Origin: Thermoplasmata archaeon
GTDB lineage: Archaea; Thermoplasmatota; Thermoplasmata; Halarchaeoplasmatales; Halarchaeoplasmataceae
Assembly (NCBI GenBank): GCA_003560595.1
Contig: PWKY01000022.1
Location: 1 to 63,836 of the forward strand
Length of the DNA stretch: 63,836 bases
Direction: 5' to 3'
Shown here: positions 12,122-43,367 of the stretch, piece after piece
How the letters are laid out: each line of letters begins with the position of its first letter
How positions within the stretch are numbered: the stretch's first letter is position 1
Translations under genes and position numbers: made by a program
The notes under the pieces: generated by a model
Database searches by the model: none
What the model was told of the DNA's origin: nothing
What the model saw: the letters and a program-made list of their open reading frames with translations, nothing else

Positions 12122-12599
12122 TACCGTAGGCAAGGAACACTAGTACTGCACATCCTGATAATAACAGTGCCTGTGGGCCTTGATTTTCATATCCAAATAT
12201 ATAATCCTGGATACCAGTGATGGCCAACATCAAATAAAACACTATCAATACCAGAGCAAAATAGCTTACAGCAGTCGGAAAGGCCATTTTGTCAAAATAG
12301 GATCGTTCCGCCAATACTACATACCAATACATGACCAAGGGGAAAGCTACTATCAACAGGTAATAGAACAGTATATACAGATCACCAAGGGTGATGGTTG
12401 GGATGCAGAATGGTAATAAAAGAGAGATGAATGATATACCGGGTAAGGAAAGGTTAGTTTTTTCAAGATGTTGGCTAACCGAAACGCTCAGCAGTGAGAT
12501 CATAGCTAGTGAGACCAACAAGGTATCTCGGTTGATACTTAAGAATACGATGAATAGAAAAAGTCCCAATATGTGTACAAGAAGCTTACCCTTTTTCAT
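12102..12599 (-). CDS. Membrane protein of the MoxR cluster
   Basis: A 165-residue protein with about five to six predicted transmembrane helices and very short loops. The start overlaps the stop of the DUF58 gene by 4 bp (ATGA, 12596-12599), and the end overlaps moxR on the other strand by 20 bp. I do not recognise a family. Position, rather than sequence, links it to the cluster; it may form a membrane complex with the DUF58 or DUF1616 proteins. Confidence 0.7.
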   Translation of the reverse strand: MKKGKLLVHILGLFLFIVFLSINRDTLLVSLAMISLLSVSVSQHLEKTNLSLPGISFISLLLPFCIPTITLGDLYILFYYLLIVAFPLVMYWYVVLAERSYFDKMAFPTAVSYFALVLIVFYLMLAITGIQDYIFGYENQGPQALLLSGCAVLVFLAYGIKLPKT

Positions 12600-13957
12600 A
12601 GCCCCTCCTCCATCACCCTGAGTCCTTCCTTTCCGGGATATATCTCGAATACTTTTGCGCCCCCTCTATATAATTTATGTAGGATAGTTTCTAGATATAG
12701 ATAGTCCTGATACGCCCGTTCAAGCACCGCTTTATCAACGTTTTCCACATCGTACCAAGGAGAAAATGGGACTATCACCCATACGGTATGGTTCATGGCC
12801 TTCAACTTTTCAACGGACTTTATAAGAAGGGCGGGATCCGTTTCTAGGTCAGTTATGAATATTATCAAAGAGCGTTTATTCCCTCCTTTTTTTAACTCTC
12901 TTATAGCGTTGATCAGGCCTCCAATAGCCCCTCCTCCAAAGCGGAGTTTGCTTATCTGTTCAACGAATTGAAGTTCCGCTTGCTTAAGCTTCCTGGTAGT
13001 GACCTCTTTGTTGTATCTGTGGTCCCTGTATTTTACAGACTCTTTTGGCTCCGGTAGATCAGATAATCCCTTGTATATCCTGGGGAACGTAGTACGTTTT
13101 TGTTCGGGTTTTTGATAAAACAAGACGTCTCGGTGGTCGTAGGCTGTAAGCCCTATCTCGTGATTGGATAGTTCGAACGTTTTCAGTAGCTCTATTGTAA
13201 GGAAGATAACGTGATTGTACTTCTTTTTACCTCTACGCATAGATGGAGACATGTCCAAGAATATGGAACACTGCAAAAGTGCCATCTTTTCGTACTCCTT
13301 GGTCATCATCTTTCCCAGTTTGGAAACCGATTTCCAATGGATGTCCCTTAGTCTATCACCAGGGTGATACTCCCTGATCTCTTCCAATTCCTCGGAACTA
13401 GTGCTGAAGCGCTGTATATCCTCTACTAGCTCCTCTAGATGTACCCTATGTGCATAGGCTCTACCGTGTCTTATCGAGTCCTTGGAAGGATAGACCACCA
13501 TCTCCTTATATGCAGGATGTTTAAAATCACTTTTGAAAAGTCCCATGGGATCGTATATGGTACCTTTCAATCCCCCTATCTTAGTTTTACCCGACGATGT
13601 GGGGTATAACGAGTATTCAAAGAGCATCTTTGAATTCAAAGAACCATCCAGATCTCCAACACCTTCCATATCTGCATCGTCAGCACGTATAGATAAGTGA
13701 AGTGGACCCTTGGATTCCAGCACGTGTGATATGGTCACACCTTCGTCGACATAGGCGTTATCCTGTTTTATCTGTGTACTCACCTTTATGTTCGTACTGT
13801 CCCCCTCTAAATAAGTCCGGGAGTAAACGAAGATAGACAGTATCCCGGCTCCGATCAAGGCCATAAAAGGATCACCCAGGAAGTAGGCACCTACGAACAA
13901 ATAGATAGGTACAACCAAGATCATCTTTCCTCTGGTCGTGAGTTCCACAGATGTCAT
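12596..13957 (-). CDS. DUF58 (VWA-like) protein
   Basis: A 453-residue protein. Two N-terminal transmembrane helices (about 9-45) are followed by a beta-rich domain and the DUF58 core, recognised by EIREYHPGDRLRDIHWKSVS and by the following VWA-like domain with a MIDAS motif DMSPS (in SIFLDMSPSMRRG). VWA domains bind metal and protein ligands, and in DUF58 proteins they are the presumed clients of MoxR. It starts immediately after the DUF1616 gene and overlaps the next gene, so the three form one minus-strand operon convergent with the DUF4129-DUF4350-MoxR operon. Confidence 0.92.
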   Translation of the reverse strand: MTSVELTTRGKMILVVPIYLFVGAYFLGDPFMALIGAGILSIFVYSRTYLEGDSTNIKVSTQIKQDNAYVDEGVTISHVLESKGPLHLSIRADDADMEGVGDLDGSLNSKMLFEYSLYPTSSGKTKIGGLKGTIYDPMGLFKSDFKHPAYKEMVVYPSKDSIRHGRAYAHRVHLEELVEDIQRFSTSSEELEEIREYHPGDRLRDIHWKSVSKLGKMMTKEYEKMALLQCSIFLDMSPSMRRGKKKYNHVIFLTIELLKTFELSNHEIGLTAYDHRDVLFYQKPEQKRTTFPRIYKGLSDLPEPKESVKYRDHRYNKEVTTRKLKQAELQFVEQISKLRFGGGAIGGLINAIRELKKGGNKRSLIIFITDLETDPALLIKSVEKLKAMNHTVWVIVPFSPWYDVENVDKAVLERAYQDYLYLETILHKLYRGGAKVFEIYPGKEGLRVMEEGL

Positions 13958-13958
13958 C

Positions 13959-14978
13959 TTATTCCTCTCCCATCACCGTTACCCATAGGTGAAGATTACG
14001 ATAGGGCTCCGTATCATCAGGAGTAAACTCTTCGGGCTTAAAAAGCAAGAATTGCACCATGTATAAACCCGGTTCTTCTAAAGAAAAGTTTAGATGTTTC
14101 ATGGATCTTTCTTCGTGAGCTAGTGTGAACTCCTGTACATAGGTGGTTGCAGGTGACAACGTCAAGTTGTGATCATCGGGGATATCTTCAACTGTCATGT
14201 TAATATAAAAATATATCTCTACACCGGCCTGTAGATCCTCCTCTCCCTGATCCTCTATAACGTCTTCCTGATGGGAATCGTAATCGGTATAAGCTGTTCT
14301 CACCACCATGAGGTAATCCATATCTCTGTGTTCTCTATTCACTGTTCCCAGGATCACATGCCCAGTTTGATTGACAGACAATCTTGTAGGATAATCATCG
14401 GCCATACCGTGGGGTCCTAAGATGTAAAACTCAGTGAACCTCTCGCCGGTGCGCGGGGTCGTGATGATATAAGCTGCCAGCACCATGGAAGATATCAAAA
14501 GTACGACGGTCGCCAACACCAGAAGCTTGTCGATGGTGTCGTACTCGCTCCAGTTCGGCTGTTCGATCTTTATGTTGACGTCAAATCTTTCCTCCAAAGG
14601 TATCGAGGTCCTTCGCAGATAAGAAAGTGCACACAGGGCCAATATGAGTATCGAAAGCGAAGTAAGTATAGATGTTAGGGTTATATTCCACACATAATTC
14701 AACAATAAGCCCACCAAGGGAGTCAGAGCTATGCTGAGGCCGAATGACAATGCCAATCGTTCTATATGGTCCAGTCCTTGTTCTTCTGGAAAGAGTGTAG
14801 ATACCAGTGAATAGCCCGGAAAAAAAAGTAGGAACGGTAATCCCAAAACCGGGCGCAGTATGGAATCGGGTAAAAAGATTATTATCGGTATGAGTATCAA
14901 GGTAAGCGATATGACGACCAGTAGGTCCCACGGTTTTTCTTTAGTGTGTATCTCCAATCTCAGACACCTTTTGAACAC
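13959..14978 (-). CDS. DUF1616 family membrane protein
   Basis: A 339-residue protein with an N-terminal bundle of about four hydrophobic helices including the diagnostic segment FPGYSLVSTLFPEEQ, a further helix near residues 152-170, and a C-terminal extracytoplasmic beta domain with a LSVNQTGHVILGTVNRE-like stretch. This is the DUF1616 family, widespread in archaea and often near surface-glycan or MoxR genes. The C-terminal domain probably lies outside the cell. First gene of the minus-strand operon. Another protein with the same N-terminal helices but a coiled-coil tail is encoded at 36910-37515. Confidence 0.85.
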   Translation of the reverse strand: MFKRCLRLEIHTKEKPWDLLVVISLTLILIPIIIFLPDSILRPVLGLPFLLFFPGYSLVSTLFPEEQGLDHIERLALSFGLSIALTPLVGLLLNYVWNITLTSILTSLSILILALCALSYLRRTSIPLEERFDVNIKIEQPNWSEYDTIDKLLVLATVVLLISSMVLAAYIITTPRTGERFTEFYILGPHGMADDYPTRLSVNQTGHVILGTVNREHRDMDYLMVVRTAYTDYDSHQEDVIEDQGEEDLQAGVEIYFYINMTVEDIPDDHNLTLSPATTYVQEFTLAHEERSMKHLNFSLEEPGLYMVQFLLFKPEEFTPDDTEPYRNLHLWVTVMGEE

Positions 14979-15013: not shown

Positions 15014-15349
15014 TCAGTGTTCATAATATATGGATTCGCACTGAACGTATTCCAGATCATCCTTTAAAGCTATCTCCTCCTTCTGCAGTTCTCTACCTAG
15101 ATAGGATGCGTGGTCCAAACGGGATACCATCTTTTTTCTCACGATGGTATCACAGATAGCCTTGGCACTTTTACCTTTGACCACCGTGCACAGACTACCG
15201 GTTTCCACTTCCAGATCACCACCTTTATTGACATTCAAATAGTGTTCTACTACTATCTCTCCCCCCTTCAAAAAGATAACAAAAAATCCTTCGGGGTCGA
15301 ACACGATATCCTCATCTTCGTCTGCTTTGATAACTTCAACCTCTTTCAT
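15014..15349 (-). CDS. DUF4346 (pterin-associated) domain protein
   Basis: A 111-residue protein made only of a DUF4346 domain. The signature is visible as DPEGFFVIFLKGGEIVVEHY near the N-terminus, TGSLCTVVKGKSAKAICDTI in the middle, and SRLDHASYLGRELQKEEIAL near the end. In other archaea this domain is found attached to pterin-binding or MtrA-type domains, which links it to tetrahydropterin methyl transfer; its own activity is unknown. Here it is the last gene of the metF-mtrA-mtrH-metE operon and overlaps metE by 14 bp, which ties it firmly to methyl transfer to homocysteine. It could be a chaperone or reactivation factor for the corrinoid protein; this is inference. Confidence 0.8.
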   Translation of the reverse strand: MKEVEVIKADEDEDIVFDPEGFFVIFLKGGEIVVEHYLNVNKGGDLEVETGSLCTVVKGKSAKAICDTIVRKKMVSRLDHASYLGRELQKEEIALKDDLEYVQCESIYYEH

Positions 15350-16223
15350 CGAGCACCATCTCTCTAGCTATTACCATCTTTTTTAACTTTTCTCGAGCTA
15401 TTTCTTCCGGCAGATTCCTTAAACCGCAGTCTGGGTCTATGAGGGAATCCACCCCGAAAACGTCTATAACTTTTTGGATCCTTTCGACTATAGTTTCAAC
15501 TTTCTCCACCATCCCGTCTGTACTTACCACGCCGGCGGCGATATCTTGTGAGAGATCGGTGTCCTTGTAAACTTCGTAGAGATGTGGATGCTGGGTGAAC
15601 TCGTGATCTAAGATATCTACGTCGAACTCCACCAGCTCATGTACTATCTCAGCCACGTCCCCGCATACGTGTAGTGCCGTCTTTCCATCAACATCCAGAA
15701 CTTTCTCAACTGCTTCCTTCGCCTCTTCATCATAATCCACCGATAGGAATGGTTCGTCTAATTGAACCACGCTGCATATGGAAGACAATTCCATAGCCTC
15801 CTGATGAAGTGCTTCTGCTATGTCGAACAAGCATTCTGTGTCTGAATCATAAAAGAGATCTTGTACTGAATTCATCAAGGTGTAGGGTCCGGTTATGATG
15901 CCCTTTAATTCAACCCCCGGAGGAAGCATATCTTTTACCCTCTTTTGATCGTCAACGGTGATGGGTCCTTTGTAAGATACTTTGGAGATCATCTGCACAC
16001 GTTCACGGATTCGAAAGCCCCTTAGACCTCTAGCGAATATAGAGATCATGTCACCCCTGGTCTGTCCATCGGACACCAGAGAAATACCTGCTTCGACCTG
16101 AGCTTCTACCGCCCTTTCCATGCTTTTGATAAATGGGTCTTCACCGGTGTGATACGAAGATCCCAGTGAACTTCTACTGGGTAAAGACGGGTAGCTCCCG
16201 ACCACGGTCGTCATCAGTTCCAT
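15336..16223 (-). CDS. metE: Short (core) MetE methionine synthase, archaeal type
   Basis: A 295-residue methyltransferase that corresponds only to the catalytic C-terminal barrel of cobalamin-independent MetE. Visible features are VVGSYP at 7-12, DEPFLS at 156-161 and the zinc ligands H185 and C187 (LHVCGD), a likely Glu at 208 and C266 (DPDCGLR). Short archaeal MetE proteins do not take methyl groups from folate directly; the Methanothermobacter enzyme uses methylcobalamin in vitro, with a corrinoid protein as the presumed donor. The operon encodes exactly such a donor (MtrA) and its loading enzyme (MtrH), so this enzyme most likely makes methionine from homocysteine and methyl-Co-MtrA. Confidence 0.92.
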   Translation of the reverse strand: MELMTTVVGSYPSLPSRSSLGSSYHTGEDPFIKSMERAVEAQVEAGISLVSDGQTRGDMISIFARGLRGFRIRERVQMISKVSYKGPITVDDQKRVKDMLPPGVELKGIITGPYTLMNSVQDLFYDSDTECLFDIAEALHQEAMELSSICSVVQLDEPFLSVDYDEEAKEAVEKVLDVDGKTALHVCGDVAEIVHELVEFDVDILDHEFTQHPHLYEVYKDTDLSQDIAAGVVSTDGMVEKVETIVERIQKVIDVFGVDSLIDPDCGLRNLPEEIAREKLKKMVIAREMVLDERG

Positions 16224-16255
16224 ATTATCTCATAGGGTTTAATCCCCTAAAAAGG

Positions 16256-17164
16256 TTATAGTTGGTTGAAAGGATGTTTTTCCGCCACCTCTACACCAAA
16301 ATAGGTTTCCGCCCCTTCACCGACTAGACGGTCGATCATGGCGACCACTGGAAGCTGCTGTCTAGCGTTCTCTATGGGTCCGTAATAGATGAAATCGGCA
16401 CCGAATATGATAGGAGGAACATCAACAGACGCATCGAGTATCGGTGAGACTTTTTCTTTATCTTCGTAACCATTCAGCCAGCCCCACGATTCCACCGCAT
16501 TATGCATGGCACAGCCGGTGGGCAGGCCGAATTCACTCTTGAATACAGGTACTGCCCTAAGGGCTTCACTGGCACCTTCGCCGAAGGGTGTAACAGCGGT
16601 ATCCAGCAGTATGTTTTCTATCGATCCCGACGCTGCTAGCAGTCCGTCGGGCATCAGCTTACTTCCACCTTTGATCATGTTCAAGCGACCCTGTGCGCTG
16701 TTGTCCTGTGGATCATAGGCCAATATCACAGCCGCTTCAGGCGTACATCTTTCCAGGGTCTCCAGCTCATCATCGGTCACACCTAGATTGATGCTGTTGT
16801 AAAGTGTACGATCCAGTGCACCTATCTGTTCCATATGCTCAAGAAGCTTTATCCTCACTTCTGACTCGGGAACATCGAATGAGATCACTCCGTCAACAGC
16901 TTCCAGTACAAAATCCACCTTCCAATGGATCTCTTCTTCGTCGTAGATGAACACATCGACCAAGGTCTGGATGGCAAGTTCATCCGCCGTCTCCTGCTGA
17001 AGATATATCGACCCTTCGATCTTTTCCAAGGACTTTTTCGGGTCTGGGAACTGCCCTTCGTAGAAGGTCGATCCTACCGCTAGTGTAGCTCTCTCTCCCG
17101 GCTGTCCACCCACCTCTATATCACCGAGCTTGTTTACCTTCTGTTCCTTGGCAAATGTAAGCAT
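16256..17164 (-). CDS. mtrH: MtrH-family tetrahydropterin:corrinoid methyltransferase
   Basis: A 302-residue protein matching subunit H of the methyl-tetrahydromethanopterin:coenzyme M methyltransferase. Characteristic segments are GGQPGERATLAVGSTFYEG at the N-terminus, DRTLYNSINLG in the middle, and FGADFIYYGPIENA close to the C-terminus. MtrH transfers the methyl group of methyl-tetrahydropterin to the cobalt of MtrA. No other Mtr subunits (B-G) are encoded nearby, so this is a soluble two-component system and not the sodium-pumping methanogenic complex. The start is directly after the mtrA stop. Whether the carrier is tetrahydrofolate or tetrahydromethanopterin cannot be told from the sequence. 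Confidence 0.93.
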   Translation of the reverse strand: MLTFAKEQKVNKLGDIEVGGQPGERATLAVGSTFYEGQFPDPKKSLEKIEGSIYLQQETADELAIQTLVDVFIYDEEEIHWKVDFVLEAVDGVISFDVPESEVRIKLLEHMEQIGALDRTLYNSINLGVTDDELETLERCTPEAAVILAYDPQDNSAQGRLNMIKGGSKLMPDGLLAASGSIENILLDTAVTPFGEGASEALRAVPVFKSEFGLPTGCAMHNAVESWGWLNGYEDKEKVSPILDASVDVPPIIFGADFIYYGPIENARQQLPVVAMIDRLVGEGAETYFGVEVAEKHPFNQL

Positions 17165-17728
17165 TCAATCCACCTCCATAGATGATATATCGCCCCATGG
17201 GCTCAATTCGATGGATGCATGAAGTGCAGCGGTGCTTCCTTGCATGGATGTGGCCTGCTCTTTGAACTTGATGGCGATGTAGGGTTCACCGAAGGACCCA
17301 GGATCTTTTTCTATCAACTGGTTCACCATCTTCTGTACCTCCTCCTCATTGGATACTCCTATCATATCCTCCACCTCTATCTGTTCCCGGAATCTATCTA
17401 CGGCTCCCTTGTCTAGATTTTCGATATATGGCACAGCTCCCGGTGCCTCTATGATCCTTCCGTTATCGTCTATACCGTTTTCAACCAGGCATATAAGGGT
17501 TTTACCCGAACGGTGTCCACGTATCTCTTTACCACAGATCACTAGAAATCGTATATGGGGATTGGAGATAACGTTTGCCACCACCTTCTCTATACCTAGA
17601 TTTTCGGTCTTCATAGGCCCCCAGATAGCTGCGTTCTTGAAGCTATATCTCTCACTCAACGTGACTACTGCCACTGGTGACTCGGCATCCCCTTCTTTAT
17701 AATCGCCGGACCACGGATACATGCTCAT
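17165..17728 (-). CDS. mtrA: MtrA-type corrinoid protein lacking the membrane anchor
   Basis: A 187-residue corrinoid carrier. The conserved block RFLVICGKEIRGHRSGKTLI contains His72, the equivalent of the lower cobalt ligand of MtrA, followed by APGAVPYIENL. Methanogen MtrA is about 240 residues and ends in a transmembrane helix; this protein stops at SPWGDISSMEVD, with no hydrophobic C-terminus, so it should be soluble. Its start overlaps the metF stop (ATGA) and its stop abuts mtrH, so the three are made together. In this context it would carry the methyl group from MtrH to the short MetE. Confidence 0.93.
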   Translation of the reverse strand: MSMYPWSGDYKEGDAESPVAVVTLSERYSFKNAAIWGPMKTENLGIEKVVANVISNPHIRFLVICGKEIRGHRSGKTLICLVENGIDDNGRIIEAPGAVPYIENLDKGAVDRFREQIEVEDMIGVSNEEEVQKMVNQLIEKDPGSFGEPYIAIKFKEQATSMQGSTAALHASIELSPWGDISSMEVD

Positions 17729-18672
17729 CTCATCCCTCGTATTATCTCGGCGGCCATCTCCTCGGAGCGCATGGGTATGATATGTGCCCCTACTTTGGTA
17801 TACAATCCCTTCTCTTCAACACCCTCTCGTATCTTTCTGTACATATCCTGCACGAACTCTATGGATTCTTTAGAAAAATCATCCGCCTCTATGAGTCTGG
17901 ACTGGACCTTATCAGGTATGTTAACTTGTGGTACCGTATCCGATAAGAACTTCATCTCATCCGGTGAAGCGAAGGGTGCAGTACTAACCAATATGGGAGG
18001 ATGCTTATCGGTCAAGGCTTCCATGGCCTCTATCAAAGAGATCACCTCCCCAGAATCGTAGGTTATCTGTGTCTGGAAGAAATCCACGCCAGCGGTTATC
18101 TTCTTTTCTGCGTATCTTGATTCTTGTGTTCGATTAGGCAGCAGTACACCTCCTACGGTAAAATCCGTAGGTCTTTCCAGTTTTTCGAGTTCTGTAAGAT
18201 ATCTATTCCTTAACCTGGACTGACGTGTAGATAACTCTGGCATCAATTTACCTTTGTTAAGATGTTCTTTTATACCGGTGATCAATTCCAAGGAATTTAT
18301 GGATTCTGGTTTCTCCTCAGCAGGATAATCACCTACTGCCAGGTCACCGGTCATGGCTAATACGTTCCTTAAACCAAGGCTGTCTGCACCTAAGAGCCAT
18401 TTCTGAAGACCGCTGAGAGCTGAATCCCGGCAAGTAAGATGTGGTATGGTCTCTATGCCCAGTTCTTTTTGGAGCAAGTATGCGTAGGGTGCTGGATCTA
18501 TCCTTACTTTACCCACAGGATTGTTACACACGTTCACGGCTATGATACGGTCCAAGAAGTCGAATCTTGATATCCTGTCTATGTATTCATCAACGTTTCC
18601 TCCCCTTGGTGATGGGACTTCGTAGGTGATGGGGAAATCCACCCTATCTATAATCTTCAATAGATCGTTCAT
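17725..18672 (-). CDS. metF: Methylenetetrahydropterin reductase, MetF family
   Basis: A 315-residue TIM-barrel flavoprotein of the MTHFR family. It shows ITYEVPSPRGGNVDEYIDRI at the N-terminus, the catalytic-site segment PHLTCRDS, and LAMTGDLAVGDYP, which contains the substrate-binding Asp. It reduces methylene- to methyl-tetrahydropterin. Archaeal MetF proteins of this size lack the regulatory C-terminus of the human enzyme. It is the first gene of the five-gene methyl operon; a TATA box lies 27 bp upstream of ATG 18672, so the start is secure and the mRNA is probably leaderless. The F420-dependent Mer that methanogens use is not present here. Confidence 0.9.
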   Translation of the reverse strand: MNDLLKIIDRVDFPITYEVPSPRGGNVDEYIDRISRFDFLDRIIAVNVCNNPVGKVRIDPAPYAYLLQKELGIETIPHLTCRDSALSGLQKWLLGADSLGLRNVLAMTGDLAVGDYPAEEKPESINSLELITGIKEHLNKGKLMPELSTRQSRLRNRYLTELEKLERPTDFTVGGVLLPNRTQESRYAEKKITAGVDFFQTQITYDSGEVISLIEAMEALTDKHPPILVSTAPFASPDEMKFLSDTVPQVNIPDKVQSRLIEADDFSKESIEFVQDMYRKIREGVEEKGLYTKVGAHIIPMRSEEMAAEIIRGMR

Positions 18673-21127: not shown

Positions 21128-21928
21128 ATGGACGAAGATGTGCTGGAGAGACTTTTAGAAGATGTTAAACAGGGAACGGTCAGCGTCGAGGATGCAAAAC
21201 AGATCCTAGATGACACGGGTTACGAGAACTTTGGATTTGCTCGCATCGACCACCACCGTACTCGAAGAAAGGGGTTTCCGGAAGTGATATACTGTCCCGG
21301 GAAGACCGTATCACAGATAGTAAAGATAGCTGAGAGTTTACTCGGTGAACAGGACACCCTCCTGGCAACTAGAGCAGATGAAGATATTTACACAGCTTTG
21401 AAAGGGAGCTTTCCTAGATTGGAGTATAACAGAGAAGGAAGGGTCGTTTATACTCCCATAGATAGCTCGTCTGATAGAAGCATACTGGTGATAACCGCCG
21501 GTACTTCAGATATACCCGTAGCGGAAGAAGCAGTAGTGACCGCACAGGTCATGGGCTGCAGTGTGGAGAGGCTTTACGACGTAGGTGTAGCCGGTGTTCA
21601 CAGACTGCTTGATAATAAAGATAAGATGGATGAGGCAACGGTTATAATCGTGGTCGCAGGTATGGAAGGTGCACTTGCTAGTGTGGTAGGAGGTTTGGTC
21701 GGTGCTCCTGTCATCGCCGTACCCACCAGCGTGGGATATGGAGCTAGCTTCCAGGGTTTATCTGCATTACTCACCATGCTCAACAGCTGTGCATCCGGTG
21801 TCACCGTTGTGAACATAGACAACGGATTCGGTGCGGGATATGCCGCCTCTCAGATAGTGCATCTTGCTGAACAAAGAAACGAGGATCATAGTTGCAACTG
21901 CAGTGGAGGATGCGGTCATGACGAGTGA
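21128..21928 (+). CDS. larB: Nickel-pincer cofactor biosynthesis protein LarB
   Basis: A 266-residue homologue of LarB, which carboxylates and hydrolyses nicotinate adenine dinucleotide in the first step of nickel-pincer nucleotide synthesis. The C-terminal half is the AIR-carboxylase-like domain (GTSDIPVAEEAVVTAQVMGC, then VPTSVGYGASFQG). An unusual tail, HSCNCSGGCGHDE at about 254-266, has three cysteines and two histidines that may bind metal. The larC ATG lies inside its 3' end (11-bp overlap). Confidence 0.93.
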   Translation: MDEDVLERLLEDVKQGTVSVEDAKQILDDTGYENFGFARIDHHRTRRKGFPEVIYCPGKTVSQIVKIAESLLGEQDTLLATRADEDIYTALKGSFPRLEYNREGRVVYTPIDSSSDRSILVITAGTSDIPVAEEAVVTAQVMGCSVERLYDVGVAGVHRLLDNKDKMDEATVIIVVAGMEGALASVVGGLVGAPVIAVPTSVGYGASFQGLSALLTMLNSCASGVTVVNIDNGFGAGYAASQIVHLAEQRNEDHSCNCSGGCGHDE

Positions 21929-23105
21929 ATACAATATCTACCTTGACTGCTTCTCCGGCGCAAGCGGTGATATGATAATCGGAGCCCTGCTGGACACAGG
22001 TATGGGTGATATATCATATCTGAAAGAGGAGTTGAACAAGGTCGGGATAGAAGATTACTCTATAGATGTAAAGAAGGTAACACGTGGTGGGATATCTGGT
22101 ACCAAGTTTACCGTGATGGATGAAGGGGTGACTCAACCCATGAGAACTCTTCCGGACCTGCTTAAATTAGTCCAGGAGAGTGATCTATCTGAATGGGTCA
22201 AAGAAAAAGCCGGCGATATTTTTACGAACCTAGCCAAAGCCGAGGCGAAAGTACACGATATACATATGGATAAAGTGCACTTTCACGAGGTGGGTGCGGT
22301 GGACACACTGGTTGATGTATTGGGTTCGTTGATACTTATGGAGAAGATGGGAGTCGAAGGGATATCTGCATCCAAGGTACATACCGGGATCGGGTTCATC
22401 GACTGCGAGCATGGGACCTTACCGGTGCCGGCACCGGCTACCCTGGAACTTCTCAAAGGTGTGCCGGTTTACTCATCAGGTGTTGAAAGCGAACTGGTGA
22501 CTCCTACTGGGGCTGCTTTATTGAAAACACTTTCCTCCTCATTCGGTGATATGCCCGACGGAGAGGTTGTTTCGGTGGGATATGGAGCCGGTTACAAGGA
22601 ATTAGACCAACCGAATCTTCTTCGAGCGGTATGGCTGAAAAAGATAAAAAACAGCATGATGCCAAAGATAACTGTACTGGAAACCAATATCGATGATATG
22701 AATCCAGAGGTTTACTCATATCTTTTTGAAAAGCTGTTCGAAGCAGGAGCACTCGATGTGGCCCTCACTCCGATATACATGAAAAAGAATCGACCAGCTT
22801 CGAAATTGACGGTCCTCTGCAACTCGGAGATAACCGACTCGTTACTCGATATATTATTGAAAGAGACCTCCACCTTTGGCGTTCGCATCTTGGAAGGTAA
22901 CAGGATCTGCCTAGAACGAGAGATCGTTGAAGTGGAAACGAGATACGGTGCTCTCAAGGTAAAGGTTGGATCAAGAGATGGAAAACCCATGACCATATCT
23001 CCGGAATACGATCACTGTGCAGAGATCGCTAGAAAAGAAGGTGTTGCACTCAGAGAAGTGTATCGGGCAGCCATCCGATCTGCTGAGGAGATCTACAGGG
23101 TGTAG
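21918..23105 (+). CDS. larC: Nickel insertion protein LarC
   Basis: A 395-residue homologue of LarC, the CTP-dependent cyclometallase that inserts nickel into the pincer precursor. It opens with the family signature YLDCFSGASGDMIIGALLD and continues with KVHFHEVGAVDTLVDVLG, where histidines probably contact nickel, and a C-terminal EVETRYGALKVKV domain. In some bacteria LarC is split and joined by frameshifting; here it is one continuous frame. ATG 21918 is chosen over an in-frame upstream TTG at 21864 because it gives the canonical N-terminus and a usual overlap with larB. Confidence 0.94.
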   Translation: MTSEYNIYLDCFSGASGDMIIGALLDTGMGDISYLKEELNKVGIEDYSIDVKKVTRGGISGTKFTVMDEGVTQPMRTLPDLLKLVQESDLSEWVKEKAGDIFTNLAKAEAKVHDIHMDKVHFHEVGAVDTLVDVLGSLILMEKMGVEGISASKVHTGIGFIDCEHGTLPVPAPATLELLKGVPVYSSGVESELVTPTGAALLKTLSSSFGDMPDGEVVSVGYGAGYKELDQPNLLRAVWLKKIKNSMMPKITVLETNIDDMNPEVYSYLFEKLFEAGALDVALTPIYMKKNRPASKLTVLCNSEITDSLLDILLKETSTFGVRILEGNRICLEREIVEVETRYGALKVKVGSRDGKPMTISPEYDHCAEIARKEGVALREVYRAAIRSAEEIYRV

Positions 23106-23109
23106 GTAT

Positions 23110-23904
23110 ATGGAAGAAGAGTACAGCAAGTTAAGAAGCCGATTGAAAAAGCTATCCAAAGCAGCGGTTGCTTTCTCAGGAGGCGTTGACAGCTCCTTTT
23201 TACTCAAGGTAAGCTCAGATGTACTTGGGAAAGATAAGGTGGTAGCACTGACTGCACGCTCTCCGTTCACGTTCGAAGAAGAATTACAGAAGGCGAAAGA
23301 GACGGCAGAAAAGATCGGAGTCGAACATGTGATCTTGGATATACCTGTTCTTAACGATAAGACGATCCGAGACAATCCTAAAGACCGCTGCTACTACTGT
23401 AAGAAAAAGATATTCACTTCATTTCTCGAGCTTCTGGAAAGTGATTTTGAAGGAGAGCCCGTTTTGATAGAAGGGACGAACCTAGACGACGTAGGCTCAT
23501 ACAGACCGGGAAGAAAAGCTATCGAAGAACTAGAGGTTCGTTCACCTCTGATGGAGAGCGGTCTGGATAAAGAGATGATCCGTTCGCTGTCTAAAGACCT
23601 CGGCCTTACGTCCTGGGATCATCCATCACAGTCCTGCTTAGCCACACGTTTTCCTTATGATACAGTGTTAACCGAGAATGAACTGAGTAAGGTGGAGGAA
23701 GGAGAAGCTTATCTGAAAAAGCTGGGATTCCAAGATTGCAGACTGCGAATCCATGGTAACGTCGCACGTATCGAGTTACCAAAGTCGCAAATGGAACGCC
23801 TCATGGCAAATCCATCTAAAATCGTCCGAAGAATGAAGTCACTTGGATTTACATACATAACCCTGGACCTTGAGGGGCTGAGAAGCGGCAGTATGGACCT
23901 ATGA
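23110..23904 (+). CDS. larE: Sulfur transferase LarE, three-cysteine type
   Basis: A 264-residue PP-loop ATPase that adenylates the pincer precursor and inserts sulfur. The PP-loop SGGVDSS is at residues 23-29. Cysteines are present at 94 and 97 (DRCYYCK) and 176 (SQSCLATR). The single-cysteine Lactiplantibacillus LarE sacrifices Cys176, whereas enzymes with all three cysteines hold a [4Fe-4S] cluster and can act catalytically; this protein has the three-cysteine arrangement. ATG 23110 is chosen because it follows the larC stop by 4 bp; the frame extends upstream inside larC but that part has no homology. Confidence 0.93.
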   Translation: MEEEYSKLRSRLKKLSKAAVAFSGGVDSSFLLKVSSDVLGKDKVVALTARSPFTFEEELQKAKETAEKIGVEHVILDIPVLNDKTIRDNPKDRCYYCKKKIFTSFLELLESDFEGEPVLIEGTNLDDVGSYRPGRKAIEELEVRSPLMESGLDKEMIRSLSKDLGLTSWDHPSQSCLATRFPYDTVLTENELSKVEEGEAYLKKLGFQDCRLRIHGNVARIELPKSQMERLMANPSKIVRRMKSLGFTYITLDLEGLRSGSMDL

Positions 23905-26510: not shown

Positions 26511-27101
26511 CTACATCTGGGATCTTGCATTCTTGAATCCGAGCTCGAATGCTCGTAAGTTCACCTCGACGAACCTTTCCGGCACATTATTGCGTATGGA
26601 ATCTTGCATATCCTCTTTGGTCAACGGTAGTGCACCGGTTGCGGTGAGTGCTCCTAGCATGACTATGTTCTGTGCGATAGCTGCACCGGCCTGCTCGGCT
26701 AGCTCTTTAGCATCTATCATCACAAACTTGTCGCTGACATTTTGGATAGACTCGAATATATCATCCAGCTTTGGATATCCCTGTTTACCGGAACTGACTG
26801 TGAAAGGAACGATAGGTGCGGTATTGGTGACTATCCACGTATCCTTGGAAGCCTTCTTGATGGCTCGATATGTTTCCACCGGTTCGAAGCCCAGGATGAC
26901 GTCGGCATCTCCATGGCCGATGAGTGGGCTGTAAACCTTCTCTCCTATCTTGACGGTGGTCACGACTACACCACCTCTCTGAGCCATCCCATGTACTTCG
27001 CTCATCCATACATCTAAACCTTTATCCAGGGCGGCACCTCCCAGTACTTTGGAAGCGAGTAATATACCCTGTCCACCTACACCTACTATCTCTAGGTTCA
27101 T
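26511..27101 (-). CDS. iorB: Indolepyruvate:ferredoxin oxidoreductase beta subunit
   Basis: A 196-residue subunit with the 2-oxoacid oxidoreductase gamma-type fold. It opens MNLEIVGVGGQGILLASKVL and contains EVHGMAQRGGVVVTTVKIG, both typical of IorB. With IorA it oxidises aryl pyruvates from aromatic amino-acid breakdown to aryl-acetyl-CoA and reduces ferredoxin. ATG 27101 overlaps the iorA stop (ATGA). An earlier in-frame ATG at 27167 lies inside iorA and is unlikely. Last gene of the por-ior operon. Confidence 0.93.
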   Translation of the reverse strand: MNLEIVGVGGQGILLASKVLGGAALDKGLDVWMSEVHGMAQRGGVVVTTVKIGEKVYSPLIGHGDADVILGFEPVETYRAIKKASKDTWIVTNTAPIVPFTVSSGKQGYPKLDDIFESIQNVSDKFVMIDAKELAEQAGAAIAQNIVMLGALTATGALPLTKEDMQDSIRNNVPERFVEVNLRAFELGFKNARSQM

Positions 27102-28939
27102 TCTTCCACCCCCGGTTCTATTGCATCGAAGGGACACACCTGGGCACAGTGGCTGCATCCTATACACAGCGTAGTATCGATGTCAACATCGTCTCCTTCC
27201 TTAACCAGAGCGATACATCCTAGTTGGTTTACACATAAGTAGCATTTTTTACACTTCCCTTGATCCACGTGGTAGGGTGGGTTGCTCAATTTTTTCTTCT
27301 CCAATAGTACACATGGATATTTTGTAACTACTACAGATATCCCGGGATGCTCGATGGCTCTTTTGAAAACATCTATGGTCTTCTCGATCTCGTATGGATT
27401 CACAGTTTCTACGAACTCGACTCCAGCTCCTCTTGCTAGATCCTCTATGGACAGCATCGGTGCGGGATCTCCCATCCCGGTCCTACCGGTTCCAGGATGT
27501 GGTTGATGTCCGGTCATGGCCGTCGTTCTATTGTCCATGACCACGTAAACGAAATCGTGCTGGTTGTACACGCCACTGACCAGGGCGGGCAATCCAGAGT
27601 GGAAGAATGTCGAGTCGCCTAGGAAGGCGAACACCTGCTGGTCGGTGTTCTTGGAGAAACCGCCTGCGGCTCCAACGCTGCCGCCCATGCAGAGTAAGAA
27701 ATCTGCGGTGTTCAGTGGATCCTGTACACCCAGTGTGTAGCACCCGATGTCGCTTGAAAATACAGCTTCTGTTTTACCCAAGGCCTTCTTCACTGCGTAA
27801 TAAGTCGCTCTATGAGGGCATCCTGGGCACAATGAAGGAGGTCTAGATGGTAGTTCGTACTCATCTGCATCAAGGGGTTCTCCACCGGCTGGTACATCTA
27901 TCAGTTTGGATACGGCTTTCCGTACCACATCTGGATCGTATTCGAAAAGACGTGAGAAGTGACCTGTGTGCTTACCGTACACCTCGAGGGATGGATTGTA
28001 TTTTTTAGCAAGTGACAGAACTTTATCTTCAAGGAACGGTTCTAACTCCTCGACCACCAGTAATCGGTCGGCACCCTTGATAAATTCTCCTACCTTTTCT
28101 TCCGGGAAGGGATTGGTCATACCGAGCTTCAATATGGATATGGGAAGACCGTATATCTCCCTCAGTTCGTAAATGTAGTTGAAGCCGGCACCTGAACCGA
28201 TCACATGGAGTTCAGGATCATCCACTTCGAATTCCTCGGTGAATCGAGAGCCCTGGGAGATCGGTTTCGCTTTACCGAACTGTTTTAACAATCGTGGATG
28301 GTTCTTACGGGCGTTCTGCGGTACCGCTACGAAGCGTCCGGGGTCCTTTTCGAAGTGTCCCTTTGGAGCGGGTTCTTTTATATCTCCAAAGGTGACAATA
28401 CCCCTAGCATGGTTGACCCGGGTCGTGGTCCTCACCATAACAGGAAGTTCAAGCTCCTCGGACAGGTCGAAGGCGTATTTCACCATCTCCTTCGCCTCAT
28501 GCGGGCTGGTGGGCTCCAGCATGGGTATGCTCCCCAGTACTGAATAATATCGGTTGTCCTGCTCGTTCTGGCTCGAGTGTACAGAGGGGTCGCCTGCAGC
28601 CACTATCACCATACCGGCTCTTACACCGCAGTACATCAACGTCATCAGAGCGTCGGCTGCCACGTTCACACCTACATGTTTCATCCAGGCCATGGATCGT
28701 ACTCCGGAAGCGGCAGCTGCGGCAGCTACCTCCATGGCTACTTTTTCGTTGGCCGAGTACTCAAAGTACATACCGTAATCCTTGGCTATATTCTCAAGGG
28801 TGTTACCTATCTCCGATGAGGGTGTTCCTGGATATGTGGAGCCATGTCCGATGCCTGCTTCCAGAGCACCGCGAACTATGGCTTCGTTACCAAGAAGCAT
28901 CATCTGTTTGCCCGGTTTATCGTCGAGGAGTGCTTTCAT
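27098..28939 (-). CDS. iorA: Indolepyruvate:ferredoxin oxidoreductase alpha subunit
   Basis: A 613-residue subunit that fuses the 2-oxoacid-binding domain, thiamine-diphosphate domain and a ferredoxin domain. The N-terminus LLGNEAIVRGALEAGIGHGS and later SLCPGCPHRATYYAVKKALG and FLGDSTFFHSGLPALV (ThDP/Mg site) identify it. Two [4Fe-4S] clusters are carried by CKKCYLCVNQLGC and CIGCSHCAQVCP at the C-terminus. It starts 12 bp after the porB stop and overlaps iorB, so it is expressed with pyruvate oxidoreductase, which fits growth on amino acids. Confidence 0.95.
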   Translation of the reverse strand: MKALLDDKPGKQMMLLGNEAIVRGALEAGIGHGSTYPGTPSSEIGNTLENIAKDYGMYFEYSANEKVAMEVAAAAAASGVRSMAWMKHVGVNVAADALMTLMYCGVRAGMVIVAAGDPSVHSSQNEQDNRYYSVLGSIPMLEPTSPHEAKEMVKYAFDLSEELELPVMVRTTTRVNHARGIVTFGDIKEPAPKGHFEKDPGRFVAVPQNARKNHPRLLKQFGKAKPISQGSRFTEEFEVDDPELHVIGSGAGFNYIYELREIYGLPISILKLGMTNPFPEEKVGEFIKGADRLLVVEELEPFLEDKVLSLAKKYNPSLEVYGKHTGHFSRLFEYDPDVVRKAVSKLIDVPAGGEPLDADEYELPSRPPSLCPGCPHRATYYAVKKALGKTEAVFSSDIGCYTLGVQDPLNTADFLLCMGGSVGAAGGFSKNTDQQVFAFLGDSTFFHSGLPALVSGVYNQHDFVYVVMDNRTTAMTGHQPHPGTGRTGMGDPAPMLSIEDLARGAGVEFVETVNPYEIEKTIDVFKRAIEHPGISVVVTKYPCVLLEKKKLSNPPYHVDQGKCKKCYLCVNQLGCIALVKEGDDVDIDTTLCIGCSHCAQVCPFDAIEPGVEE

Positions 28940-28950
28940 TTTTTCATCCC

Positions 28951-29847
28951 CTACTCGTTTGTGAACTCTTCTTTCTTAAGAAGAAGTTCCCATTCTTTAT
29001 CCACATTTTTCTGTATCATCTCGACCTCTTCTTGCGGAAGGTGTCGGAACCTTCCCTGCAGTTTGAGGTAGTCTTTCACAGGTATCTTATTCTTCGGTTT
29101 CTTATATATCTTGTATTCACCATATTCTATCTCATATAATGGGAATACACAGCTGTCCACAGCTAATTTACACAGCTCGATGGTGATTGAAGGGTCCGAC
29201 CTCCAGCCGGTCGGGCACGGAGCATAGATGTGTATGAATTTAGGTCCAGGGATATCCTTGGCTTTCTGTATCTTCTCTATCATGAGCTCGGGATGACCGA
29301 TACTCACCGTGGCGGCGTATGGGATCCCGTGAGCGTTCACCACTTCCATCATGTTCTTCTTTGGATTTTTCTTCCAAGCTTTTTGACTTCCAACTGGTGT
29401 TGTGGTGGTCCATGCACCGTATGGTGTTTCACCGCTTCTTTGGATACCGGTGTTCATGTAAGCCTCGTTGTCGTACATCACCTGTATGGTGTCGGTACCC
29501 CTTTCTAAACAACCGGAAAGTGCCTGGATACCTATATCTGCCGTTCCTCCGTCACCGGCGAAACCAACGACGGTGATCTCTCTTGGGTCTACGCCCTTTG
29601 CGTTCAAAGCCGCTCTAACACCGGACGAAGATGCGCCTGTGGTTTCGAAGGCCGTGTACAGTAGTGGTATCTCCAGATTCCTGGACGGATATACACCAGG
29701 GATAACAGCCCAGCAGCAGGCGGGTATGTTGATCATAGTCTTTTTACCCAATGCTTTAAGCATGTACCGCATGGCGTGTGCCGCTCCGCATCCGGGACAG
29801 GCCGTCGTTCCTTTGTTCATCAATTCCATTTCAGGTACTTTTGCCAT
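28951..29847 (-). CDS. porB: Pyruvate:ferredoxin oxidoreductase beta subunit
   Basis: The thiamine-diphosphate-binding subunit, 298 residues. ACPGCGAAHAMRYMLKALG carries the N-terminal cysteines that bind a [4Fe-4S] cluster, and GFAGDGGTADIGIQALSG is the ThDP/Mg motif; CPTGWRSDPS near the end is characteristic of PorB rather than VorB. ATG 29847 is chosen because GGAGGCG stands 7-13 nt upstream (29854-29860 on the minus strand); an earlier ATG at 29862 overlaps porA and lacks a ribosome-binding site. Confidence 0.95.
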   Translation of the reverse strand: MAKVPEMELMNKGTTACPGCGAAHAMRYMLKALGKKTMINIPACCWAVIPGVYPSRNLEIPLLYTAFETTGASSSGVRAALNAKGVDPREITVVGFAGDGGTADIGIQALSGCLERGTDTIQVMYDNEAYMNTGIQRSGETPYGAWTTTTPVGSQKAWKKNPKKNMMEVVNAHGIPYAATVSIGHPELMIEKIQKAKDIPGPKFIHIYAPCPTGWRSDPSITIELCKLAVDSCVFPLYEIEYGEYKIYKKPKNKIPVKDYLKLQGRFRHLPQEEVEMIQKNVDKEWELLLKKEEFTNE

Positions 29848-29849
29848 GT

Positions 29850-31043
29850 TTATCGCCTCCATCTTTCTTGGTTGATCTTAAGGTCGACCCATTCGATCTC
29901 CTTATCCAATCCTTTATCTTGTAGTGAGATAGCGTCCAACATCACGTTCTTGAGTATCTTAGGAGTCAGATCTCTACCTCCGAGTCCGACTATGTAATCC
30001 TTCAAGATCACATCCCGGTGTCCGTAGAGTGCATCTTTGATCTCTCTAGCGGCGTCTCCACCGTGACCGAAGGTGTAACTGCGGTCCATAACACCTACCA
30101 CGTTCACTCCCTTGGTCAGTTTTCTGAACTCCTCGACTGGGAAGGGCCTGAATGTTCTCAATCTGGCAAGACCGACATTGTGGCCTTCTTCTCTGAGCTC
30201 GTCTATTACATCCTTAGATGTACTCGATATCGAACCCATTGTGACTATCAGTACGTCGACACCGTCTGTCTTGTACTTCTCGATGAGTCCACCGGGGTCT
30301 CTTCCGAAGACTTCTTCGAACTCTTTGTTGACTTCCATTATCTTATCTGGAGCCTTCTCGAAGGCTTCTGCTATCTTGTATCTGAAGTCCATGTACCAGT
30401 CTGGCATACCCAGAGAACCGAAACCGAGTGGTTGATCTACATCTAACTTGTAATCAGGATCGTAAGAGGGTAGGAATTCATCAACCAGTTCTTGGTCATA
30501 GATCTCAACCGGCTCTTTTGTATGGCTCAAGATGAAAGCGTCTTCAACGACCATGGCGGGTAACATTATATCTTCATCCTCGCAGATCTTGTACGCCATG
30601 ATAACGCTGTCAAGCACTTCCTGATTGCTTTCACAGAAGAACTGTAATTGACCGGTACCTTTCTGAGCTAAAGTATCGTGATGATCCGCCCAGACACTCC
30701 ATGGAGGTCCCATGGCTCTGTTGATGTTGGTCATGACTACCGGCAGCCTCGCACCCGATGCCCATATGAGCAGTTCGTGCATCAGTGCAAGTCCGTGGGC
30801 TGAAGATGCGGTGTAAGCCCTTGCTCCGGCGTTAGATGCCGCTATACAGGCGGCCATGGCCGAGTGCTCGCTCTCCACCTTGATGTATTCCGAATCCATC
30901 TCTCCTTCCGCCACCAACTCCGCTATCTTCTCCACGACTTCGGTCTGTGGTGTGATAGGGTACGCAGCCACGACTTCGACTCTAGAGAGTTTGGCACCGT
31001 AGGCTGCGGCAAAGTTACCTGATACGATCTTCATTTCAGACAT
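29850..31043 (-). CDS. porA: Pyruvate:ferredoxin oxidoreductase alpha subunit
   Basis: A 397-residue subunit that binds pyruvate and helps form acetyl-CoA. It shows [20 protein letters not shown] followed by [11 protein letters not shown] at the N-terminus, [20 protein letters not shown] (ThDP-activating Glu), and [20 protein letters not shown]. It overlaps porD by 8 bp and ends 2 bp before the porB start. The four subunits CDAB are encoded in the common archaeal order. Confidence 0.95.
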
Positions 31044-41239: not shown

Positions 41240-41452
41240 ATGAGTTTAAAAATAGAAATCGATCCTGATCTTTGTACGGGTTGTGGCATCTGCATTCGTT
41301 TTTGCCCAAAGGATGTGCTTGCCATGTCTGAAAAATTGAATAGATACGATAATCGTCTCACGGAAGTTGTCAGGCTAGATGATTGTATCATCTGTAGAAG
41401 ATGTGAACTATACTGTCCGGATTTTGCCATCAGTGTGGAGGAACAAGGATGA
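41240..41452 (+). CDS. korD: 2-oxoglutarate:ferredoxin oxidoreductase delta subunit (ferredoxin)
   Basis: A 70-residue protein with two [4Fe-4S] sites, CTGCGICIRFCPKDV and CIICRRCELYCPDF. It has the shape of KorD. ATG 41240 is preferred over the in-frame ATG at 41216 because a TATA box (CTTTATAT at 41201-41208) lies about 34 bp upstream and the protein then begins MSLKIEIDPDLC. First gene of korDABC; the stop overlaps korA (ATGA). Confidence 0.92.
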   Translation: MSLKIEIDPDLCTGCGICIRFCPKDVLAMSEKLNRYDNRLTEVVRLDDCIICRRCELYCPDFAISVEEQG

Positions 41453-42573
41453 AGAAACCAGGCGAGTACTTTATGGAAGGGAACGAGGCGTGTGCGGAAG
41501 CCGCTATGAGAGCTAACCTAGGCTTTTTTGCAGGTTACCCTATCACCCCTGCCTCAGAGATCATGAATCTACTTTGTAAAAAGCTTCCAGCCGTCGGCGG
41601 TCGTTTCGTACAACTAGAAGATGAGATAGGAAGCATGGCCGCAGTAACCGGAGCTTCATGGACCGGTCTTAGATCCATGACTGCTACCAGCGGACCCGGT
41701 TTATCCCTGATGCAGGAGAACTTAGGTTATGCAGTGATGACCGAGACCCCATGTGTGTTGGTGAATATCCAACGAGCCGGTCCCTCCACGGGTCAGGCTA
41801 CCAAACCAGGTACTGGAGATGTGATGCAGGCGAGATTCGGAAGTCACGGTGATTACGAGATCATCGCATTGACACCTAACTCGGTACAGGAGATGTACGA
41901 TATGACCATCAGTGCCTTCAACCTCGCAGACAGATACCGCACTCCTGTGGTCTTACTGGCCGATGCCGGAGTGGGACATATGCGTGAGAGAATCACCGTT
42001 CCGGAAGAGGTAGATATCATCGAAAGACGCACTCCAACCGATGATGAAACAGAATTCTTCGATACCGATAGGACCGACCACGTTCCACCCATGCCCAAGT
42101 TCGGCGATGGGTATGAACTGTTGGTCACAGGCTCCACCCATAAGGGTGACGGTACTAGGGACACTGCAAGCTACGAAACCCAGGATAAGCTGGTACGCAG
42201 ATTAGTATCAAAGATAGAGGATAATAGGGAAGATATCGTGGATTGGGAGGAGTACTACTGTGATGATGCAGACCTGGTAGTGGTATCGTATGGTTCAATA
42301 TCTAGGCCGTCTCTAGGTGCCGTTAAAAAAGCGAGAAAAGAAGGGTACAAGGTCGGCTTCTTCAGACCGAAGACGATCTGGCCCAGCCCAGAGAAAAGGC
42401 TAAAAGAGATAGGTATGGATTCGCCCGTTCTTTTAGTAGAGCTTTCATTACGCGGATATCGTATGGAAGTCGAGCGATGCGTAGGGCCCGATGGAGTTAC
42501 TGTTTACGATAGATTGAACTCACTCCCCACCGTTGAAATGATCTACAGTAAGATAAAGGAGGTGTTGATGTGA
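41449..42573 (+). CDS. korA: 2-oxoglutarate:ferredoxin oxidoreductase alpha subunit
   Basis: A 374-residue substrate-binding subunit. FFAGYPITPASEIMNLL, the EDEIGSMAAVTGASWTG segment (ThDP-activating Glu) and the GPSTGQATKPGTGDVMQARF loop are typical of KorA. It oxidises 2-oxoglutarate to succinyl-CoA or runs in reverse. Starts inside the korD stop and overlaps korB. Confidence 0.94.
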   Translation: MKKPGEYFMEGNEACAEAAMRANLGFFAGYPITPASEIMNLLCKKLPAVGGRFVQLEDEIGSMAAVTGASWTGLRSMTATSGPGLSLMQENLGYAVMTETPCVLVNIQRAGPSTGQATKPGTGDVMQARFGSHGDYEIIALTPNSVQEMYDMTISAFNLADRYRTPVVLLADAGVGHMRERITVPEEVDIIERRTPTDDETEFFDTDRTDHVPPMPKFGDGYELLVTGSTHKGDGTRDTASYETQDKLVRRLVSKIEDNREDIVDWEEYYCDDADLVVVSYGSISRPSLGAVKKARKEGYKVGFFRPKTIWPSPEKRLKEIGMDSPVLLVELSLRGYRMEVERCVGPDGVTVYDRLNSLPTVEMIYSKIKEVLM

Positions 42574-43367
42574 TATCAGGAAGAGAGATACGGGAGAAAT
42601 ACATCAGAAACCACCCCTCGGCATTCTGTCCAGGGTGTGGAGATGGCATGGTGCTCAATGCACTTTCCCGAGCGGTAGAGAACATAAACCTAGATAAAGA
42701 CAAGATAACTGCTGTCAGCGGTATAGGCTGCGCTGCCTGGATACCTTCACCTCATTGGCGTGTTGATACACTCCACACGACCCATGGTCGTGCGATACCT
42801 CATGCATTGGGTGTAAAAGTAGGGAATCGAGATCTGGAGGTCGTAGTGGTCGGTGGAGACGGTGATTGTGCGGGTATCGGAGGTAACCACTTGATACACG
42901 CTGCTAGAAGTAACCTGGGTATCACCGTACTCATGATAAATAATGGTCTTTACGCCATGACCGGCGGCCAAGCCGGTCCAACAACAGAACATGGAGAAAC
43001 CACTCTTACCACACCTTTCGGTAACCCTGCTGGAGGTTTAGACGTAGCCGAAGTCGTTAAAGCAGCCGGTGGGAGCCACGTAGCCAGATGGACTACATAT
43101 CATATGAGAGAACTCATCAAGGAGATCGAACATGCATTTTCTACCGATGGTTTCTCTTTCATTGAGATACTTACCCAATGCCCAACTAGAAGCGGTAAAA
43201 AAGATGGACTCTCAGGTGTGGATATGCTCGAGTGGTATCGAGATAATACTAGCAAGGATCCTAACAGCGATAAGATATTCGTCGGAAGACTAGTTGACAA
43301 AAAGATGCCCGAACTCTCCCATGAGATCTATAGACAGATCAGTGAATGTGGAGGTGAACCTAGATGA
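42570..43367 (+). CDS. korB: 2-oxoglutarate:ferredoxin oxidoreductase beta subunit
   Basis: A 265-residue ThDP-binding subunit. It shows FCPGCGDGMVLNALSRAVE, the DTLHTTHGRAIPHALGVKVG segment specific for KorB, and GGDGDCAGIGGNHLIHAARS, the ThDP/Mg site. Overlaps korA and korC by 4 bp each. Confidence 0.95.
   Translation: MISGREIREKYIRNHPSAFCPGCGDGMVLNALSRAVENINLDKDKITAVSGIGCAAWIPSPHWRVDTLHTTHGRAIPHALGVKVGNRDLEVVVVGGDGDCAGIGGNHLIHAARSNLGITVLMINNGLYAMTGGQAGPTTEHGETTLTTPFGNPAGGLDVAEVVKAAGGSHVARWTTYHMRELIKEIEHAFSTDGFSFIEILTQCPTRSGKKDGLSGVDMLEWYRDNTSKDPNSDKIFVGRLVDKKMPELSHEIYRQISECGGEPR

Follow-up and report, generated by a model that had tools for sequence, protein, structure and literature searches.

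The window analysed here, a 63,836-nucleotide stretch of a Thermoplasmata archaeon genome (contig PWKY01000022.1), carries a five-gene operon, metF-mtrA-mtrH-metE-DUF4346, that we interpret, with a probability of roughly 0.8, as a complete and dedicated methionine synthase that divides the work of MetH among separate, partly non-homologous proteins. The observed gene content, gene order, conservation and residues, together with the lack of detected alternatives, lead us to predict the following catalytic steps, pterin and role for DUF4346. MetF would reduce methylene-tetrahydropterin, probably the tetrahydrofolate form, to methyl-pterin, from which MtrH would pass the methyl group to cob(I)amide held base-off/His-on by His72 of a soluble MtrA. 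No longer tied to the membrane-bound Mtr complex, this MtrA would dock on a zinc-dependent core MetE, which would move the methyl group from cobalt to zinc-bound homocysteine, while DUF4346 would be a constant accessory subunit that most likely docks with or stabilises MtrA.

A predicted methionine synthase operon

The operon comprises five genes on the minus strand:

18672-17725, minus: metF, MTHFR-like, first gene, 315 aa (Pfam MTHFR, 4e-28)
17728-17165, minus: mtrA, predicted soluble corrinoid-binding protein, 187 aa (Pfam MtrA, 1e-55)
17164-16256, minus: mtrH, predicted methyl-pterin:corrinoid methyltransferase, 302 aa (Pfam MtrH, 2e-59)
16223-15336, minus: metE, predicted MesA-like core methionine synthase, 295 aa (Pfam Meth_synt_2, 9e-35)
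15349-15014, minus: DUF4346 protein, last gene, 111 aa (Pfam PterinBD-DUF4346, 1e-24)

Each Pfam assignment lies above the curated cut-off of its family, and the MetF protein also has weak Protein Data Bank (PDB) matches to MTHFR structures. A first, sequence-only reading of this DNA had described five overlapping or abutting genes; the five open reading frames are where it placed them, but only three of the junctions fit that description (metF/mtrA and metE/DUF4346 overlap, by 4 and 14 bp respectively, and mtrA/mtrH abut with 0 bp between them), whereas mtrH and metE are 32 bp apart. The gene upstream of the operon has the opposite orientation.

The source genome (1.89 Mb, 100 contigs, 92.7% complete) has haloalkaliphilic Thermoplasmata as its closest named relatives, including Ca. 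Halarchaeoplasma, Ca. Haladaptatiplasma and Ca. Saliniplasma of the Ca. Halarchaeoplasmatales. Relatives from the Great Salt Lake were named Ca. Haloplasmatales (PMC11287216), which we infer to be the same group.

Conservation across Thermoplasmatota

The operon was compared across 390 Thermoplasmatota genomes, mostly metagenome-assembled genomes (MAGs), and all surveys reported here were made within this phylum. Loci L003-L012 were treated as belonging to the same genomes as the G-labelled ones, so that each was counted once. MtrA (PF04208) is found in 61 of the 390 genomes, and crossing these with matches to PF01717 (MetE) and PF03599 (CdhD, of the corrinoid iron-sulfur protein CoFeSP) split them into 48 without a convincing CdhD and 13 with CdhD; G021 was counted among the former, its weak partial PF03599 match being discounted. 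A Meth_synt_2 gene lies less than 3 kb downstream of mtrA on the same strand in 40 of the 48 CdhD-free genomes, and in 39 of these 40 the mtrA-metE spacing is 993-1085 bp, which corresponds to a single mtrH. No metE was found near mtrA in any of the 13 CdhD-bearing genomes (Fisher p = 3e-8, uncorrected for relatedness). The mtrA-metE linkage, part of the gene order that the sequence-only reading proposed to look for in other archaea, is thus seen in 40 of these 48 genomes, and no MtrE was detected in 40 relatives. Among the eight CdhD-free exceptions, four are or look like contig breaks (G202, G225, G027, G184), two have mtrH-metE-DUF4346 together but away from mtrA (G149, G249), one has a metE with the active-site Gln described below (Q-type) on another contig, with no DUF4346 in the 5 kb read (G010), and in one that is 72% complete no metE was detected (G205).

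Within family f1, to which the source genome belongs, MtrH was found in 13 genomes, while three others (G393, G395, G396) are without it. All five genes are contiguous and in the same order in nine f1 genomes, the source genome included (G000, G390, G391, G394, G398, G399, G401-G403), and the mtrA-mtrH-metE-DUF4346 order recurs in many other families, so the arrangement is not due to chance. Two further f1 loci are interrupted, as the G392 contig starts inside the operon and G365 has one convergent gene between mtrH and metE. The metF gene adjoins mtrA throughout f1 and, among other genomes, in G231 and G408, with adjacency seen in families f52 and f59; it was beside mtrA at none of the loci inspected in f33, a large family that may be the MBG-D/Thermoprofundales group.

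These distributions bear on whether MtrA and MtrH might instead serve the Wood-Ljungdahl pathway or methylotrophy, either in acetogenesis or by passing the methyl group to coenzyme M (CoM) or a corrinoid protein, with metE a chance passenger. Such a role has precedent, as Great Salt Lake Thermoplasmatota MAGs have been depicted in a figure of an acetogen model that lists MtrA/MtrH in its legend (PMC11287216), and MtrAH of Asgard archaea and Methanomassiliicoccales has been interpreted as a pterin:CoM methyltransferase (PMC9723677). MtrA and CdhD also occur together in the 13 genomes mentioned above, and mtrA-mtrH lies near a RACo-type activase in both CdhD-type loci inspected (the activase scan covered only L060). 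We nevertheless regard this explanation as improbable, since the MtrA genomes of the window type are without convincing CdhD, the source genome is without detectable MtrE, the metE linkage is kept across many families, and the CdhD-type MtrA is a distinct, longer form with no adjacent metE. The broader proposal that MtrA in Thermoplasmatota always belongs to the Wood-Ljungdahl pathway was rejected because the CdhD-bearing MtrA genomes form a separate set without adjacent metE. In two loci from CdhD-bearing relatives in families f6 and f9 (L060 5543-9715 and L061 5676-9950), MtrA is about 260 aa long, has a C-terminal part of about 115 aa without family assignment, and is encoded beside mtrH, which makes this a second and different setting for MtrAH.

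MetE belongs to a MesA-like group

As the sequence-only reading held, MetE is short and restricted to the catalytic domain: PF01717 is the sole domain above cut-off in its 295 residues, and the source genome has no separate PF08267 gene. The zinc ligands (H185, C187, E208, C266) and the homocysteine-binding residues (S10, Q54, D156) are all present. The residue at the position of Escherichia coli Glu484 (Q54 here) is Gln in all MtrA-linked MetEs examined and Glu in catalytic MetEs of the split type from other Thermoplasmatota. Gln at this second homocysteine-binding position is typical of MesA and MesC, whereas MetE has Glu (Price 2021, PMC7857596). A tree of MetE proteins placed 25 MtrA-linked MetEs on one side of a branch (support of 97 in the Shimodaira-Hasegawa-like approximate likelihood ratio test, SH-aLRT), with the split MetEs apart. 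The best NCBIfam family for the operon protein, used as a proxy for the identity of about 40% or more to METE_METTM that marks MesA, is PRK00957 (254.9 bits, cut-off 258), against which MtrA-linked relatives score 227-273 bits, two of them above the cut-off (267.7 and 272.6 bits), and split MetEs about 100 bits. The protein is called MesA-like here, rather than MesA, because the published distribution of MesA is confined to methanogens, and MtrE was found neither in the source genome nor in the 40 relatives searched (McrA was not searched for).

MetE might also use methyl-tetrahydrofolate directly, with MtrA and MtrH running in reverse to supply the folate pool with methyl groups taken from other substrates. 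The shared operon with metF would suit this arrangement, as would the name of the MtrH-family protein MtgA (6sj8), methylcorrinoid:tetrahydrofolate methyltransferase. It is made distinctly improbable by the lack of a folate-binding N-terminal domain or partner gene in the family, by the Gln54 signature in place of Glu, by the rejection of methyl-pterins by characterised short MetEs (literature), and by the lack of a recognised substrate-specific methyltransferase among the five operon genes or the window genes scanned. A split MetE was likewise considered and rejected, as there is no Meth_synt_1 partner gene and Gln replaces Glu.

Core MetE-like proteins were also seen outside the MtrA-linked group. 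Two loci of family f24 encode a Q-type core MetE without MtrA (L074 1357-2355, L075 1037-2209), the L075 protein having Gly at the zinc Glu position, and the genomes of this family with such a MetE carry single-domain PF02607 corrinoid proteins that are a possible different donor. In family f10, core MetE-like proteins (L072 1035-1958, L073 1320-2243) have Gly or Ala at the zinc Glu position, come from CdhD-bearing genomes, and may not be methionine synthases.

MtrA and MtrH have conserved functional residues, and MtrA has no membrane helix

MtrA aligns to structures 5laa and 8q3v, and its His72 and Glu42 line up with the cobalt ligand His84 and with Glu54 of methanogen MtrA, whose roles in linkage to the cobalt ligand are described in the MtrA structure paper (PMC4915002). 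Both residues are invariant across 46 sequences, which bears out the earlier claim that the cobalt-binding His72 has been kept. Hydropathy analysis agreed with a second claim, the lack of the C-terminal membrane helix, as no hydrophobic C-terminal segment was found (best 19-residue Kyte-Doolittle mean 1.04). A third, that no mtrB-G genes lie nearby, is consistent with the result for MtrE, the membrane subunit tested, which was detected neither in the source genome nor in 40 relatives. MtrH, like MtrA present as a single copy in the source genome, aligns to 9qtp, 8z9u and the tetrahydrofolate-using MtgA 6sj8. Its D97 and N222 are invariant in 41 sequences and match positions occupied by Ala in structures 6sjo and 6sjp of MtgA, where our reading of the alignments is that the Ala residues are probably designed active-site variants.

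No other methyl-corrinoid donor is recognised

The source genome has one Meth_synt_2 gene. Searches of it found no S-methyl_trans domain (PF02574), no CoFeSP/CdhD (PF03599), no PF02607 cap domain (as in MetH and methyltransferase corrinoid proteins) and, beyond a weak match in metE itself, no Meth_synt_1 (PF08267) gene. A full Mtr complex with a separate methionine synthase elsewhere in the genome, which the sequence-only reading had named as a contrary outcome, was thus not found: there is no MtrE, a single Meth_synt_2, and no S-methyl_trans, CoFeSP, MetH-type or Meth_synt_1 gene. Because CdhD, PF02607, S-methyl_trans, MtrE and a Meth_synt_1 partner are undetected, MtrA is the only recognised methyl-corrinoid carrier able to feed MetE in this genome. 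A search for Mch found nothing, whereas FolD is present, which makes tetrahydrofolate, rather than tetrahydromethanopterin, the probable pterin.

MetE could in principle be fed by another, unrecognised corrinoid protein or by free methylcobalamin, with MtrA and MtrH helping only indirectly. The MtrA-free Q-type MetEs of f24 (G005, G017), in genomes with other single-domain corrinoid proteins, show how such a supply might look. We consider it very improbable here, as neither a PF02607 nor a CdhD protein was detected in the source genome, PF02607 is missing from 47 of the 48 CdhD-free MtrA genomes (the one genome with it is G172), and the Km of core MetE for free methylcobalamin is high (literature).

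Conserved gene order, the MetE tree and the active-site residues all agree with transfer from MtrA to MetE, and so support the route that the sequence-only reading had put forward as a direct candidate. The idea had already been published for methanogens, and we see the present data as strong support for that predicted MesA-MtrA partnership.

Several points weigh against a dedicated methionine synthase. Two f1 genomes (G397, G400) keep metF-mtrA-mtrH with metE elsewhere, in G400 together with DUF4346, and co-transcription is therefore not obligatory. The operon MetE falls slightly below the NCBIfam equivalog cut-off. The correlation among MtrA, MtrH and MetE distances (r = 0.87-0.91, 26 loci) speaks in favour, being compatible with joint inheritance, but it may largely reflect shared species history. 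Finally, because the genomes are mostly MAGs, the source genome being 92.7% complete, the absence of a gene from any single one could be a gap.

DUF4346 is a constant member of the module

In almost every locus with the module, DUF4346 comes after metE; 22 of its sequences were aligned. The NCBIfam MtrA model PRK00964.1-6 matches the operon MtrA at positions 114-273 and its DUF4346 at positions 276-368; a single MtrA model spanning both proteins suggests natural MtrA-DUF4346 fusions and hence that DUF4346 may partner MtrA. A confident AlphaFold model (predicted local distance difference test score, pLDDT, 88) has three strands and two helices, and gave no PDB match at E<=0.001 with Foldseek. 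Searching the sequence against the PDB gave no function, and we found no mention of DUF4346 in the open-access literature. A docking or stabilising accessory subunit of MtrA is the most likely role.

It is tempting to speculate that the soluble MtrA-MtrH-MetE system is the older one, an archaeal methionine synthase of wide distribution, that the methanogenic Mtr complex was built from it later through the addition of a membrane anchor and ion-pumping subunits, and that DUF4346 is a forgotten original subunit. We hold this to be unlikely, and horizontal transfer out of methanogens fits the data equally well.

Neighbouring genes

Directly downstream of the operon lie DUF1616 and DUF58 genes (12596-14978, minus), a placement kept in only part of family f1. 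It was also seen at loci L003, L004, L008 and L011 and not outside f1. On the other side, AIRC-domain, LarC-like and PP-loop genes stand in tandem (21128-23904, plus); by domain type we take these to be LarB/LarC/LarE, apparently a full set for synthesis of the nickel-pincer cofactor. The window also contains two 2-oxoacid:ferredoxin oxidoreductase clusters (27098-31043, minus; 41449-43897, plus).

Significance and comparison with known systems

What donates the methyl group to short archaeal MetEs in nature is unproven. MesA goes back to Schroder and Thauer 1999, as cited in PMC11378808, its name was introduced in PMC7857596, and earlier donor candidates by Schroder and Thauer are cited in PMC7005905. 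MesA uses methylcobalamin in vitro and does not use methyl-pterins (literature). Its pairing with MtrA was predicted from co-occurrence in methanogens (Price 2021, PMC7857596), and mesA and mtrA are close together on the same strand in a few genomes (Price 2024, PMC11378808). Methanogens are difficult organisms in which to test MtrA as the donor because it sits there in an essential membrane complex. The minimal soluble set described here (MtrA, MtrH, core MetE, DUF4346 and sometimes MetF), with no other route detected, makes the MtrA hypothesis one that can be reconstituted simply.

MtrA and MtrH homologues in non-methanogens have been noted before, and the relevant sections of a 2015 evolutionary survey (PMC4632066) and of the 2016 MtrA structure paper (PMC4915002) assign them no methionine role. 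Metagenome studies have drawn such homologues as acetogenesis or CoM-pathway genes, and the operon offers a concrete role for them. It may also explain the folate methyl branch without carbon monoxide dehydrogenase/acetyl-CoA synthase in some sediment Thermoplasmatota (PMC6461988). We found no description of the five-gene operon in the open-access literature; what is new is the dedicated soluble MtrA-MetE version in non-methanogens with DUF4346, flagged here as an unstudied partner, as a constant member.

A close parallel is MesA, which has the same single catalytic domain, zinc ligands (H-C-E-C), homocysteine-binding residues (S-Q-D) and MtrA as predicted donor. MesA has been reported only in methanogens, where MtrA is part of the membrane Mtr complex, whereas here a dedicated soluble MtrA shares an operon with MtrH and DUF4346 and MtrE is not detectable. 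MtrA and MtrH are homologous to the Mtr complex subunits and have the same cobalt-ligand and active-site residues, but MtrA is without the membrane helix, MtrE is undetected, and the predicted methyl acceptor is homocysteine rather than CoM.

MesB and MesC are likewise short and MetE-like, with a corrinoid protein as their presumed partner, but their predicted donor is CoFeSP, undetected in the source genome, and MesC mostly has His as the second zinc ligand where the operon MetE has Cys. The PF01717 catalytic subunit is common to the split archaeal MetE, which differs in needing a Meth_synt_1 partner and in having Glu at the Gln54 position, neither of which was found in this organism. MtgA (6sj8) is of the same family as MtrH, which has the Asp and Asn replaced by Ala in 6sjo/6sjp, but MtgA acts in glycine betaine demethylation with the corrinoid protein MtgC. 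MetH and the split MetH/MtgCDE of marine bacteria (PMC12478193) divide the work into the same roles of pterin methyltransferase, corrinoid carrier and homocysteine methyltransferase. By comparison, the operon has no AdoMet reactivation domain, and it draws its corrinoid part (MtrA) and its homocysteine part (the MetE fold) from different protein families.

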